A stretch of DNA of 64,000 bases, from positions 62,001 to 126,000 of the forward strand of contig CAMKKZ010000007.1 of assembly GCA_946413525.1 (NCBI GenBank), in the 5' to 3' direction. Both the position numbers and the translations under genes were made by a program. Within the stretch, counting starts at the first letter, position 1. Each line of letters opens with the position of its first letter. Under the pieces are notes generated by a model. It had not been told where the DNA came from and searched no databases. It saw only the letters and a list, made by a program, of their open reading frames with translations. Positions 52,684 to 59,674 of this stretch are shown here, piece by piece. The DNA is from an uncultured Oribacterium sp. (GTDB taxonomy: Bacteria; Bacillota; Clostridia; Lachnospirales; Lachnospiraceae).

Positions 52684-55600
52684 CTATGCGGCTTCCTTCT
52701 GCTCCGTTTCAGCCTGTTCTCCCGAGGCGCTCTCCGCAATGGATTCCACTTCCACGCCATAGGGCAGTCCCTTCGCGTTTTCCTCTTTCGCAAGCTTCTT
52801 ATAAACCTCTTCCGGCTTTGTGCCGAAGGATGACACGACCGCGCTGTTAATAATCCTCCCGGTCTCAAGCTCCCGGGCAAGATTGCGGGCGGCGCTCACA
52901 TTGAGCTCGCAGGGAACAAATTTGGCCCTGACATTGTAACCGGCCTCCTCGAAGGGCTTGATATAGGTTTCCATCAGGCTGTCATAATCGTCTGCCACAA
53001 GAGGAAGGATGACATTCGTGCCCTTCAAATCTCCCTCCGTGAAAGCCTCCATAGCCCGCTCCATGAGCATCATGCTCTCCATATGTACCGCGTCAGCGGC
53101 GCCGCCGTGGCTTTCCTGGAATTCAGGAAGCATTTCCTTGATCACGTCGCAATCCAGGATGAATGCCTTCATCTCCTCACTGTCGGGATCCGTCACCCTG
53201 CTGGACTTGCCCGAGGCGGGAAGACCCAGCACAAGCTCCATTTCATAACCTTTTTCCAACGGCCCGTCGTAAACGTATTTATGAAGCTGCGTCTCCTCGT
53301 TAATGCTTTCTGTCCTGGCGGAACCGATGGAAAGAAAGTCGTCCAGAATATAGTTTCGAAGCATCCTTCTCGCCGCCGTGTCTATCTCGGAGGTTTTTCC
53401 ATAATAATCAATATAATAAGCGGACAGCGCGTCAATCTGATCTAACAGAGGGCTTTCCACTATTTCCTCCATTGTAGGATAATCCCCGGCCTTGATCCTC
53501 GTATACATCTCCCTTGCCTCATCTCCTTCAATGATCAGATGATCGGGAGAAGGTTCCCAGGTAACGGGCCTGACTCCGATTTCGGCAAGCTTTTTTAAAT
53601 CCGCAGCCAAAGAGGCAGATTCCTCTGATTCGCTTTCTGAAGCGGATTCTTTTTCAGACTCCTCTTCAGAAGCTTCGGCATCTTTTGACTCTTCTACGGA
53701 TTCCTTTTCAGAGGCTTTGGCATCTTTTGATTCTGCCTCTGATTCTTCATCGAATGCTTTGCTTTCTTTCTGTTCCGCTTCCTCTTCGGTCTTTTCTTCG
53801 TCGCTTCCGATTTCCGCAGCCTTCTCTTCCGAATCGTCCTCTTTTACGGAACCGGCTTTCATCGCCGCAGTCTCCGCGCTTTCCTCGATAGCGGTCTCGG
53901 AAATCTCGATCCTTCCCTGCCCATAGGGATCCTCATATTCCTCTCCGATATTCCCGCCAAGCTTCTCAATGATATAATCGATCAGTACCTTCTTTTCAAT
54001 GCCGGCGTCTTCAATCTCGACTTCGGCGCCGTCAAAGCCGGTCTGGCCGTCCCCGTTATCCAAAAGCGTATAATCCAGCCCTGCGACAGTGTAAATCTTT
54101 TCCGGATCCAGCGGCTCATTCCCAAACATCACGTTTTTGACGCGCCTCTGCCTTGTGATCCCTGTCATCATACCGTTTTCATTCGCGGTACAACCGCTGT
54201 CTACGGTAAGGTCGACCTGGTAAGTAATGCCGGAAACATCAAGGAAGGCGCCGTTTTCCTCCGGAATCCCCCTCGCGCCCCATTCCAGGGCATCCAGAAT
54301 CTGCTGCCCGCTTGCCTTGACTACGCAGACGTTATTGTCCCAGGGGAATACTCCCAGCAAATCCCCTTTCGTGACGTCCCCTCTGGAAATTCCGTCCCGG
54401 ATTCCGCCGCCATTTATCACGCCGATATCCGCGCCTGTCATGACCCTGAAGGCATCAGAGCAGAGATCACCAATGTTTGTTTCCGTGCGTCTCACGATCC
54501 TGATTGAGTTTCCGCTTGTATCATTTAAAACCGGATCATAAATGAAAAGATTTACATCGCTATGGGCCAGAACCTCCCCAAGGGTTTTCTCAAATTCCTT
54601 TTCTGTTTCCTCAATCGCCTCACTGACCTCATTTTGGATATTCAGGAATGCCGGAGCATCGATGGAATTTGGCCAGCTCCATACATCTGTTTCTTCGATC
54701 CCCCGATCCGTAATGAGGCTGTAACCAATGCAGCTCATCTTCGTCCCGACGGCGGAACGGATCACATTTTCCCCGTCCTTGTTTTTCATGACGACCTGCA
54801 CAGTATCGTGGCTGTGGCCATCGAGAAATACGTCTATACCGTTCGTATGGGATATGACGTCGGCATAGGTATATGGCTTTACGGCCTCCTCAAGCCCCAT
54901 GTGCCCCATGACATAGACATAATCGGCGCCCTCCGCCCGGCAGTCGTCAACGGCTTTCTGTACCGCTTCATAGACGTCGCTGCCATCCTCATTCTGCAGG
55001 AAGTCATATACGTATTCCCCATCCTCATTCTTCTCGCGCATAGGCGCGGAGGTGTTCATGGTTTCCGGAGTCGTCACACCAACAAAGCCGATCTTTTTTC
55101 CAGCCGCCTCCACGATCTGGTAAGGAGGAAGAAGAAGCTCTCCTCCCTTATTGAAATTGCAGCTTATGTACGGGAATTCAGCCATATCTTTCAGCTTTAT
55201 GAACTGCTCAACACCATAATCGAACTCATGGTTACCCGGAATCGCAACATCATATCCGACGGCATTCATCAGCTTGAGCAGAGCCTCCCCGTTCGTAAGG
55301 GTGCCGATCGCCTCCCCCTGGACACAGTCACCGTCATCCACCAGTATGGTGTCATAGCCTCGCTCTTCAAGATTGTTCCTGATCGCATACAGACCGGCAA
55401 AGCCAAAGCCCTGGCTGACGCCGCAATGGACATCGCTGGTATAGAGGATGTATATCCCCTTCTTCTCATCTGCATCCTCTAAGTCCCCTTCGGCAGCATC
55501 CGCCTTGGCTTCCTCGTCCCCGGCATCCTTTTCAGCCGCTTCAGCCTTGCCTTCTCCGTCCTTTTCTTCGGCATCCTTTTCAGCCGCTTCTGCCTTGGCT

Positions 55601-55887
55601 TCCTCGTCTTCGGAATCCTTTTCGGCAGCATCCGCCTTTACATCCTCGTCCTCGGAAGACTCTTCCTCCTGAGCCTTATCTTCTGCAGCCTTTTCCGTGT
55701 CCACCTCGTCCTTTTTTGACTCAGAATCATCCAGGGCCTCCTCCGCTTCGGCTTTTACCGAGGAGATAAATGCCTGGACAGAAGACTTCCCACTTTGCTT
55801 CTCAGGCTCCTTGTCCGCATAAGCAGTGATCATGATGAACATAATCATGCTTAAAAACAACATTCCCGCAATCGTCTTTTTTCTCAT
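52684..55887 (-). CDS. exported 5'-nucleotidase fused to a zeta-toxin-like kinase domain
   Basis: 1067 aa. Signal peptide (residues 1-24). Residues 45-140 are acidic repeats (KADAAEKD-type, about 16 residues each). Residues 145-420 are a metallophosphatase domain (YTSDVHCG, DDGDCVQGE, GNHEFDYG, GHSHDT) and 430-670 the 5'-nucleotidase C-terminal domain (NIGDLCSDAFR, NGGGIRDG). An acidic Ser/Glu linker (690-790) leads to a zeta-toxin-type P-loop domain: GLPASGKSS at 888-896, LDCD near 912, PEFQESHGGAADAVHMES, VILPLV, and an R..R..GR tail. Zeta toxins phosphorylate UDP-GlcNAc in the cytosol; here the domain follows a signal peptide. No antitoxin gene is adjacent. AAAGGGAAG upstream of the ATG. 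Confidence 0.85.
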   Translation of the reverse strand: MRKKTIAGMLFLSMIMFIMITAYADKEPEKQSGKSSVQAFISSVKAEAEEALDDSESKKDEVDTEKAAEDKAQEEESSEDEDVKADAAEKDSEDEEAKAEAAEKDAEEKDGEGKAEAAEKDAGDEEAKADAAEGDLEDADEKKGIYILYTSDVHCGVSQGFGFAGLYAIRNNLEERGYDTILVDDGDCVQGEAIGTLTNGEALLKLMNAVGYDVAIPGNHEFDYGVEQFIKLKDMAEFPYISCNFNKGGELLLPPYQIVEAAGKKIGFVGVTTPETMNTSAPMREKNEDGEYVYDFLQNEDGSDVYEAVQKAVDDCRAEGADYVYVMGHMGLEEAVKPYTYADVISHTNGIDVFLDGHSHDTVQVVMKNKDGENVIRSAVGTKMSCIGYSLITDRGIEETDVWSWPNSIDAPAFLNIQNEVSEAIEETEKEFEKTLGEVLAHSDVNLFIYDPVLNDTSGNSIRIVRRTETNIGDLCSDAFRVMTGADIGVINGGGIRDGISRGDVTKGDLLGVFPWDNNVCVVKASGQQILDALEWGARGIPEENGAFLDVSGITYQVDLTVDSGCTANENGMMTGITRQRRVKNVMFGNEPLDPEKIYTVAGLDYTLLDNGDGQTGFDGAEVEIEDAGIEKKVLIDYIIEKLGGNIGEEYEDPYGQGRIEISETAIEESAETAAMKAGSVKEDDSEEKAAEIGSDEEKTEEEAEQKESKAFDEESEAESKDAKASEKESVEESKDAEASEEESEKESASESESEESASLAADLKKLAEIGVRPVTWEPSPDHLIIEGDEAREMYTRIKAGDYPTMEEIVESPLLDQIDALSAYYIDYYGKTSEIDTAARRMLRNYILDDFLSIGSARTESINEETQLHKYVYDGPLEKGYEMELVLGLPASGKSSRVTDPDSEEMKAFILDCDVIKEMLPEFQESHGGAADAVHMESMMLMERAMEAFTEGDLKGTNVILPLVADDYDSLMETYIKPFEEAGYNVRAKFVPCELNVSAARNLARELETGRIINSAVVSSFGTKPEEVYKKLAKEENAKGLPYGVEVESIAESASGEQAETEQKEAA

Positions 55888-56101: not shown

Positions 56102-59100
56102 CTATTTGCTTCCATCCAGCATAGCCCCCAGGGGGTGAGCATTGCCGCCATAGTAGCCCCACTTCCCGGTTTTTTCATCATACCGCCATCCCGAGATGCC
56201 CGTAGGTATTTCATTGAAATGGTAATCGGCGCCATCCACCGTCCTCCTGCCCGTGGCCATGGCCCCGCCGGATGGGTCAAGGTAATAACAGAAACCATCT
56301 GAAGGATCTGAGAACCACCCTGTCACCATAGCGCCGGTAATTCCGTCCCGGCTATATGCCGTCCCGTCCCCTTCTTCAGCAAGGTAATAAAACCTGCCAT
56401 CATCGTCCCGTATCCAGCCCGTCATCATTTTCCCGTCCCGGGCGAAATAGAACCAATGCGTCTTTTCGTCTGAGGTCCTGATGTATTTCCAGCCCACCGA
56501 ATGCTGCCCCGTCAAGGCCTCCGTAAAGTACCAGTTCCCTTCATCGTCCTTTTGCCAGACGCCATCCGTTACAGTACTTGTCACCGGCGTAATGGCCGCA
56601 TGACCAGCGTTAAGATTCCCGCCTCCTCCTCCGGAACCGCCAGACCCACCGGAGCCTCCTGATCTGCTATTCCCACCTGTCACATAAATGATGCACGAAG
56701 CCTCGCCGAGTCCGGCCCTCGCGGTAATGACCGCCCTGCCGGGACGCAGGGCAAAGACATTGCCATCCTGGTCAACGGAGGCGATTTGCGGGTTGTCACT
56801 GTTCCATACCACCTTAAGGTCCTGATCTTCTCCGGCCTTTATCGTTGCAATGAGTTTCCGGGTCGAGCCGGCGTCAAGGAAAAGCTCGTAATCACTTAAG
56901 GAAATCTCAGCAGGGACAGCGTCTGAAATCCTGACCGCAACCGTCACACTCAGCGAGGGGTCGGAGCTGCTGGCCGCCGTCACATTCACGACGCCGCTTC
57001 CTTCCACGGTAAATACCGCCGCCTTCTTCCCCGCCTTGCTTCGGTAAAGCTCCTCCGAAATGTTTTCCACATCCCCCTCGTAGCTCCAGAGGATGGAGTC
57101 ATCGTTCAGATTCGTCCCGTCATTTGATTCAAGCTCCGGAAGCAGGACGACTTCTTTTTTTGTACCGGGCATATAGGTAACGTCGATCACGCCGTCCACG
57201 ATGTTGTCCCCTCCTGCCGCGTCCAGCTTGATGCCCCGGGGATAGCCCGTAAGCCGCTGATAATTCTTAAGTACGGCGGATTCCGCGGCCTTGACCGTTG
57301 CAAAAGCCCAGCAAAGATTCGTCTGCCCCTGATCCTTCACCTCCGTGACCTGTCCCAGCTTGTCCAGGTTATATTTCTTTGGGAGCTTCAGGCTGAGGGC
57401 CCCGCCCTTGAAATCAAGGTAACGGAGCAATTCCCCGGATTCATCCACGACCAGGCCGCCGTTATAGCTGTCATTTTCATCGAATTCAACCGAAGAAGAC
57501 GAATCTGAAGCAGCTTTCATAGCATTCCTTGTATTGCCGCGGTATGCGGGGGTGGCAACGGACTTTGGCAGGTTGGAAGGCGTTGCCGGGAAAATGTTTG
57601 CGGAATCCGTATCGTCATCATCTTTTCCGCTCCCCCCCTCTACAAAGGCAGTCTCCGAGGAATCAACTCCGGATACGCTTCCCGAAGGGTCATTCCCCGA
57701 GATGCTTTTTGATGAATCAACTCCGGGCGCGCTTTCAGAAGGATCATCCTCTGACGCTTTTTCCGAAGAAGGCTTTTCCGGAACGGGAGGAAAGGCCGTG
57801 CCATTCTCCAGGCTTTCCGCATTTACCCCTTCCGCCTCGTATACGATATCGGCATTTTCACTTTCCAGTAAATCGAAGCAATTCTTTCCCTCCGCGAATT
57901 CGTAGAAATCGGCAATGCTCACCATGCTGTATCGCCCATCGCTGTAATCAGACATGTCCGCATAGGTCATGGCATGTATGATCGGAAAATCCGCATGGGG
58001 GGAAAGCCAGTAAGGATCCTTGAAATCCCCGCCCCCCTTATAGTAGGCTGCCACCCCTTCTCCGCCGAACACAGTTGACAAGTCCCCAATGAATGACGAG
58101 CTGTAAAACATGCCGACCTTTTCATTTGCCGGGGAGGGCAGTTCAAGATCCACATAAACGGTAAATCTGGAGCCGGCCGGGATAGCGATGCCCCGATCCA
58201 GCCTCACGGTAAATACCCCCGCATAGGTACGGTAGCCACTCTTCAGAAGGTCCGGCTTCCCATCGTCCACAGACACATAAACATTGTACTTATATCCCGT
58301 ATAAGGCGAGCCGAAAGCCACCGCCCTGAGCAGCTCGTCCTTGTCTGTAGTATTTTCAAAGGACTGACTGGCGGCTCCCTTTCTTTTCCCCTTGAACCTC
58401 ATCGCGGCCTGGGAGCTCCCGGCAGCCTGGGATACCCCGATATCATTGGTATAAAGGTGGTTGTAATTATCATAGCTTTCAACCTGCCCGAAAACCACCC
58501 GGTCATTGCCCATTCCCATCTGCTGGTCATAATAGGAAATGTAAAAGTCCCCATTTTCATGGGTATCGGTCCCCCAGGAATTCCGGACGATCCAGGCCCC
58601 GTCTCCGGGGGGCATATACTCAAACTCCTTCCCCTCAACGGTGATGAACCTTTTGAATTTTTCTTTGGGAATCGTGTCATCCCAGCCGATCAGGGTCACA
58701 TTATGATTGCTTTTAAGATTGTACTTTTCCGCGTATTTCTTCATGAACTCCATGGGAAGGTAATAATACTCATTTTCATCTTTGTTCTCCCCCGACCAGA
58801 AGACCTGATGAACACACATAGCCACAACCACAGAGCCATAAGTCATCAACGCGTTTTTCCAATGATTCATGTAATCGCCTTTACCCAACTCGGAGTAATC
58901 CTTCGCTCCGGGGAGCTCGATCATGTCCTGGACATGCAGCTCCGGTGTTTCCGGCTTGAACTGCATATAATTGGATGGCGTGGCCTTGTAGACATACTCC
59001 TCCGACGGCATGACCTTCTCCGTGACAGGACCGGCCCAGTTCTGGAAATATGCTCCCCCCAGGAAAGCGTCGGCGCCGATATTCTTGCTGGACTTTTTGG

Positions 59101-59674
59101 CGGGGTCATCGTAACCGTTATAGTAATGGAAGGGGGAAACGTTGTTATTGACCTTTCCGGCAAGATCAAACTCCGAGAAATTCGGCATTACCTCATGAGA
59201 AGAAAGGGAATCCAGCGTCAGGGTGAAATCCATTCCCGCATCAACTGAGTCTTCATCCGGGATGACATAAAGCTGATAATAACCTGCCGGCAGCCCCTTC
59301 TCCTCGATTTTCTGGGAACTATAGGGACGGGCCTGGACGTTCACCGGCTTATCCTTCCTGCAGAGAAGGAGGTAGGACACCCGCTCAGCCTCCAGGAGAA
59401 TACTGATGTCAGTGTCCTCATCAAGGTAAAAGCCGTAATATGCCATTTCGTCCTTTTCCAGCCTGTCAGATACCCGGCTCGGGAAGGAAATGACATCCTC
59501 TCCGTTCTCAAGGACCGCGTTCCATAACGCGGCAAAAAACTCCTCCGACTCATTCAAAATGTAATCCCGGATATCCTGCGCCGCGGAAACCGGCTGCAGC
59601 ACCATTAAAAAAGACATCACGAAAACAAGTACGGACGCGATCAAGGCACGCGATTTCTTTCCTGAAAACACCAT
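56102..59674 (-). CDS. exported papain-like (C1) peptidase with permuted catalytic order and cell-wall-binding repeats
   Basis: 1190 aa. Signal peptide cleaved after VSA (residue 31). Residues 165-390 carry the second half of a C1 domain: NWAGPVTE (213-220), catalytic His in SNHNVTLIGWDD (His324) and Asn in WIVRNSWGTD (Asn365). Residues 400-575 are a lectin-like beta-sandwich, 615-740 a Ser/Asp linker. The first half follows: LPKKYNLDKLGQVTEVKDQG and TNLCWAFATVKAAES with oxyanion Gln782 and Cys788. Then a Big-2-like Ig domain (about 920-1000), a Gly-rich hinge and five or so cell-wall-binding repeats. No other CWAF-type site exists in the chain. CAGGAGGGAGC precedes the ATG. Confidence 0.88.
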   Translation of the reverse strand: MVFSGKKSRALIASVLVFVMSFLMVLQPVSAAQDIRDYILNESEEFFAALWNAVLENGEDVISFPSRVSDRLEKDEMAYYGFYLDEDTDISILLEAERVSYLLLCRKDKPVNVQARPYSSQKIEEKGLPAGYYQLYVIPDEDSVDAGMDFTLTLDSLSSHEVMPNFSEFDLAGKVNNNVSPFHYYNGYDDPAKKSSKNIGADAFLGGAYFQNWAGPVTEKVMPSEEYVYKATPSNYMQFKPETPELHVQDMIELPGAKDYSELGKGDYMNHWKNALMTYGSVVVAMCVHQVFWSGENKDENEYYYLPMEFMKKYAEKYNLKSNHNVTLIGWDDTIPKEKFKRFITVEGKEFEYMPPGDGAWIVRNSWGTDTHENGDFYISYYDQQMGMGNDRVVFGQVESYDNYNHLYTNDIGVSQAAGSSQAAMRFKGKRKGAASQSFENTTDKDELLRAVAFGSPYTGYKYNVYVSVDDGKPDLLKSGYRTYAGVFTVRLDRGIAIPAGSRFTVYVDLELPSPANEKVGMFYSSSFIGDLSTVFGGEGVAAYYKGGGDFKDPYWLSPHADFPIIHAMTYADMSDYSDGRYSMVSIADFYEFAEGKNCFDLLESENADIVYEAEGVNAESLENGTAFPPVPEKPSSEKASEDDPSESAPGVDSSKSISGNDPSGSVSGVDSSETAFVEGGSGKDDDDTDSANIFPATPSNLPKSVATPAYRGNTRNAMKAASDSSSSVEFDENDSYNGGLVVDESGELLRYLDFKGGALSLKLPKKYNLDKLGQVTEVKDQGQTNLCWAFATVKAAESAVLKNYQRLTGYPRGIKLDAAGGDNIVDGVIDVTYMPGTKKEVVLLPELESNDGTNLNDDSILWSYEGDVENISEELYRSKAGKKAAVFTVEGSGVVNVTAASSSDPSLSVTVAVRISDAVPAEISLSDYELFLDAGSTRKLIATIKAGEDQDLKVVWNSDNPQIASVDQDGNVFALRPGRAVITARAGLGEASCIIYVTGGNSRSGGSGGSGGSGGGGGNLNAGHAAITPVTSTVTDGVWQKDDEGNWYFTEALTGQHSVGWKYIRTSDEKTHWFYFARDGKMMTGWIRDDDGRFYYLAEEGDGTAYSRDGITGAMVTGWFSDPSDGFCYYLDPSGGAMATGRRTVDGADYHFNEIPTGISGWRYDEKTGKWGYYGGNAHPLGAMLDGSK

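Follow-up and report, generated by a model that had tools for sequence, protein, structure and literature searches.

A predicted cell-wall-bound papain-family (C1) protease with a circularly permuted catalytic domain in an Oribacterium genome and in other Clostridia

Domain layout of the protease gene

The window analyzed here, a stretch of 64,000 nucleotides from a gut bacterium, an uncultured Oribacterium sp., contains on its minus strand an ORF of 1190 aa (56102-59674), in which Pfam recognized Peptidase_C1 (PF00112), Lectin_like (PF18560), Big_2 and choline-binding repeats. The PF00112 match reached 47.4 bits (cut-off 20.7) and was split into two stretches, which cover the Cys part and the His/Asn part of the domain. 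From the N-terminus onwards, a PPC-like domain, the His/Asn half, the lectin-like domain, a flexible linker, the Cys half, an Ig-like domain, Big_2 and the choline-binding repeats follow each other (Table 1). His324, Asn365, Gln782 and Cys788 were found at the residues and in the motifs which had been given for them in an earlier note made from this sequence.

Table 1. Features of the predicted permuted protease (coordinates refer to the window)
Feature	Coordinates	Strand	Evidence
Signal peptide (residues 1-31), secretion	59582..59674	-	KK/R start, hydrophobic core and VSA-A end in sequence
PPC-like beta-rich domain (residues 50-160), preceding the catalytic His half	59195..59527	-	Alignment of 5, then 12 permuted members
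His/Asn half of C1 (residues 165-395), starting with NFSEFDL	58490..59182	-	PF00112 profile 73-214 at residues 211-390
Catalytic His324, in SNHNVTLIGWDD	58703..58705	-	Invariant in all permuted members with full sequence examined
Asn365 (NSWG; WIVRNSWGTD)	58580..58582	-	Asn or Asp in relatives
Lectin_like domain (residues 396-575)	57950..58489	-	PF18560 at residues 430-514, E 1.8e-7
Ser/Asp/Glu/Pro-rich linker (residues 576-756), lectin-like domain to Cys half	57407..57949	-	Sequence; alignment A5
Cys half of C1 (residues 757-808), LPKKYNLDKLGQVTEVKDQGQTNLCWAFATVKAAESAVLK	57251..57406	-	PF00112 profile 2-43; comparison over 42 residues with 81 ordinary C1 proteins
Oxyanion-hole Gln782, in DQGQTNLCWAFATV	57329..57331	-	Invariant
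Nucleophile Cys788, in DQGQTNLCWAFATV	57311..57313	-	Invariant
Ig-like domain immediately following the Cys helix (residues 809-922)	56909..57250	-	Alignments A2 and A5; all-beta in AlphaFold2 model
Big_2 domain (residues 923-1000)	56675..56908	-	PF02368 E 3.5e-10
Choline-binding (cell-wall-binding) repeats (residues 1040-1185)	56120..56557	-	PF19127 E 1.8e-14, three stretches

PPC (PF04151) was not matched by Pfam in the window protein itself; weak matches were obtained in two relatives (L114, E 0.002; L161, E 3e-5). The Lectin_like domain, which directly follows the His/Asn part, is recognized in L114 with an E-value of 2e-43. A lectin-like domain and a low-complexity linker had been proposed to join the two catalytic halves over about 390 residues between Asn365 and the start of the Cys half. 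Indeed, 392 residues were counted there, with the PF18560 match being followed by the linker, and ahead of the Cys half only this unconserved linker is present.

The adjacent gene (52684-55887, minus strand) encodes a secreted 5'-nucleotidase (PF00149 and PF02872), to the C-terminus of which a P-loop domain has been added (GLPASGKSS, weak AAA_33, zeta-toxin-kinase-like). Such a fusion is unusual in exported proteins.

Reversed order of the catalytic halves

In the C1 family the catalytic residues are arranged along the chain as Cys, His and Asn. This order is broken in the window protein, where His324 and Asn365 precede Cys788. Pfam aligned the upstream half to positions 73-214 of PF00112, and a genome-level search aligned it to positions 75-214 and the downstream half to positions 2-43, which is reversed with respect to the profile, and together the two halves cover the profile once, except for the region around the cut. 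No Cys motif was found upstream of His324. A reversed alignment of the halves to C1 profiles, with no Cys site ahead of the His, is what the earlier note had anticipated.

The His/Asn half is homologous to the post-Cys parts of ordinary C1 proteins, and its start, NFSEFDL, corresponds to the point that normally comes after the Cys helix. The permuted members with full sequence share this boundary: [FYL]SExx[MIL] forms the start of their His half, after a PPC-like or Ig-like domain, while their Cys half ends after an ES..L helix and is followed by an Ig-like domain, which is common to the permuted members with the exception of L102. In ordinary C1 proteins the Cys helix is connected to the [FYL]SExx[MIL] segment by a loop of about six residues. 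The constant cut site agrees with the ends that had been assigned to both halves, and both the profiles and the comparison of 19 members with one cut site support a circular permutation within the loop that follows the Cys helix.

Cwp84 from Clostridioides difficile (PDB 4CI7, 4D59) is the best match in sequence and fold to the His and lectin part of the window protein; it shows the same pair of C1A and lectin-like domains and is likewise secreted and wall-bound. However, Cwp84 is arranged as propeptide, Cys, His and lectin, whereas in the window protein the His half and the lectin-like domain come before the Cys half, and choline-binding repeats take the place of the Cwp84 cell-wall-binding domains. 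Ordinary clostridial C1 and Lectin_like proteins (e.g., L005, L006, L014) show identities of about 28-33% in the His and lectin part and of 38-47% in the Cys half, but they are Cys-first, mostly about 460-620 aa long and have an intact cut loop. A Cys helix that moved behind the His part is established for permuted NlpC/P60 relatives (YaeF/YiiX, LRAT), as the earlier note had stated, and also for PPPDE/DeSI, MARTX RID and LupA (PMC3142127, PMC10318531). Yet, these are compact single domains of other papain-like clusters, are not C1/PF00112 and lack a lectin-like domain, and no NlpC/P60 or PPPDE Pfam match was obtained for the window protein at E up to 1. The papain/cathepsin (C1) cluster is said to retain canonical structures in the 2023 classification of papain-like enzymes (PMC10318531), and permutation is not mentioned in PMC10380794. 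A search of open-licence papers did not yield any permuted C1 enzyme, an absence that is no proof; the permuted variant appears to be undescribed so far.

Recurrence among Clostridia and origin

The one other C1 gene found in the genome of the window (G000:C28) has the ordinary order, and so do the closest homologues in 60 near relatives. A family-wide search (397 genomes) revealed four proteins aligning from the N-domain into the His half, all of them reversed, and searches at the order and class level added Christensenella-type members and one BspA-type member. An alignment specific for the permutation, consisting of the N-domain, the start of the His half and the post-Cys Ig region, was scanned against about 85,000 species genomes and yielded 11 loci, every one of them permuted (11/11). 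They belong to Hungatella hathewayi DSM 13479 (complete), [Clostridium] asparagiforme DSM 15981 (complete), Clostridium sp. chh4-2 (three genes), Ca. Copromonas faecavium, three Christensenella and two Ruminococcus MAGs. In total, 19 distinct permuted domains were collected from Lachnospiraceae, Christensenellaceae and one further family, compared to 72-81 ordinary C1 domains in the examined loci, a count that varies with the motif used and the loci included. As the same order occurs in 18 other distinct proteins, the reversed order of the window protein is not due to chance. The permuted gene is kept in five of six Christensenella species and in all four species of the genus of G240, and ordinary-order paralogues coexist with permuted genes in the same genomes. 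The window protein as a single query did not match any genome contig, no permuted member could be detected in IMG/VR at the sensitivity used, and a phylum sample of 399 genomes yielded no further one.

In L102 (G681:C215) the permuted domain is flanked by BspA-type repeats on one side and Big_2 on the other, and the tail is dockerin-like. This locus stems from one MAG with 9% contamination, and a second case is absent in 48 genomes of its family.

In a tree of the His and lectin parts that included 15 permuted proteins there were two changes of state, and one when long branches were left out (SH-aLRT 84); the position of L102 is uncertain. As the permuted proteins group in this tree, a single origin of the permutation is likely, with moderate support from the sequences. 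Most likely, this origin would have been one ancestral tandem duplication after which the outer halves were lost. A His half flanked by two Cys motifs, as in a duplication intermediate, was not found among the loci examined. If the end of the lectin-like domain were connected to either the propeptide or the Cys half, and the loop behind the Cys helix were opened, the present order would arise with the core unmoved. As the lectin end would thereby have been joined to the propeptide or the Cys half, the linker is a candidate internal propeptide.

Conservation, predicted activity and significance

Gln and Cys are invariant across the 19 permuted proteins, as is His wherever the stretch was available, while the position of Asn365 is occupied by Asp in several relatives and lies in an NNYG or NSYS context in some. 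For Christensenella pairs, dN/dS values of 0.04-0.08 for the His half and 0.02-0.10 for the Cys half were obtained, compared to 0.16-0.21 upstream, 0.18-0.24 in the linker and 0.13-0.17 in the post-Cys domain, which makes both C1 halves the most constrained segments of this protein. This contrast is absent in a more distant Ruminococcus pair, whose synonymous sites are near saturation. The Cys half is conserved in much the same pattern as in ordinary C1 proteins (entropy correlation 0.78), including the LPxxYDLR arm. In papain, this arm packs on the His half. Such matching conservation and purifying selection are to be expected if one active site is still formed by the halves.

Very probably, the gene encodes a predicted secreted, cell-wall-bound, Cwp84-like C1A and lectin-like cysteine protease whose catalytic domain is circularly permuted and whose halves most likely refold in one chain. 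By folding back on each other, they would bring Cys788, Gln782 and His324 together to form an ordinary papain active site. The protein would be active at the cell surface, with the linker in a propeptide-like role. AlphaFold2 runs with alignments of 12 sequences, from which ordinary-order homologues were left out, reached a mean pLDDT of 56 and a pTM of 0.51 for window residues 41-1000, and 61 and 0.53 for a Ruminococcus relative, with pLDDT values of about 40-70 in the Cys half and about 20-25 in most of the linker of the window model. The best structural match of the second model was Cwp84 (E 8e-17), which supports the His and lectin part only. As AlphaFold2 is too uncertain to place Cys788 relative to His324, we infer the reassembly in one chain.

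An assembly error or a chimeric contig, which the earlier note had considered and for which it might speak that the genome of the window is a 70-contig draft, has a minute chance of being correct: the same order is present in many independent assemblies, including the complete genomes CP102274.1 and CP102272.1 and the chromosome LT700187.1, and for the permuted family as a whole this recurrence refutes such an error. An inactive split copy had been named as the other alternative. That the halves are kept in a pseudo-protease merely as scaffold or binding modules would fit with the variation of Asn365, which, however, weighs less, as the equivalent Asn287 of Cwp84 lies outside the active site (PMC4089489). 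The invariant Gln, Cys and His and the strong purifying selection on both halves make this very improbable, and the low dN/dS values of the Christensenella halves argue against a dead copy. Somewhat less remote, yet still unlikely, is an active site formed between two molecules, with the Cys half of one chain completing the His half of another in a domain-swapped dimer or a surface array. The linker of the window protein, with about 180 residues, is long enough to permit swapping, and the conservation would fit equally well. However, the linkers of the Hungatella, Christensenella and Ruminococcus relatives are clearly shorter, and the geometry of Cwp84 makes closure within a chain simple. With 18 clostridial relatives rearranged in the same way, the permuted C1 protein is a genuine, conserved enzyme variant with predicted activity.

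The 5'-nucleotidase and the permuted protease, neighboring genes in the window, form one chain in L114 (6541-11334) and L115 (6625-11346), where the nucleotidase is fused N-terminally to the protease and an LPxTG-like tail is present at the C-terminus. This link does not hold throughout, as a motif scan of the other loci with flanks (L105-L113) revealed no 5'-nucleotidase motif. The permuted proteases of L159 (2644-7221) and L160 (2776-7359) carry an N-terminal zincin-like HELQH region unnamed by Pfam. A hexapeptide, [AS][TS][GAP]S[ND]A, recurs with varied codons in linkers and loop inserts of L105-L110 and L067 (the window has one ATPSNL), and is possibly a glycosylation or processing signal selected at the protein level. 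It is conceivable, albeit rather speculative, that through the permutation the propeptide became an internal linker anchored at its two ends, whose cleavage would yield an obligate two-chain surface protease, and that the N-terminus became available for fusions to further surface enzymes (5'-nucleotidase in the Ruminococcus MAGs, HELxH region in G1026 and G1027).

As in several permuted members Pfam recognizes just one of the two C1 halves, such enzymes may look truncated to annotators. For C1, the founding papain family, a natural, inherited permutation contrasts with the 2023 classification, in which its cluster was described as canonical. With 19 permuted enzymes at hand, of which several have ordinary paralogues in the same genome, it can be tested directly how the permutation affects folding, zymogen control and specificity.
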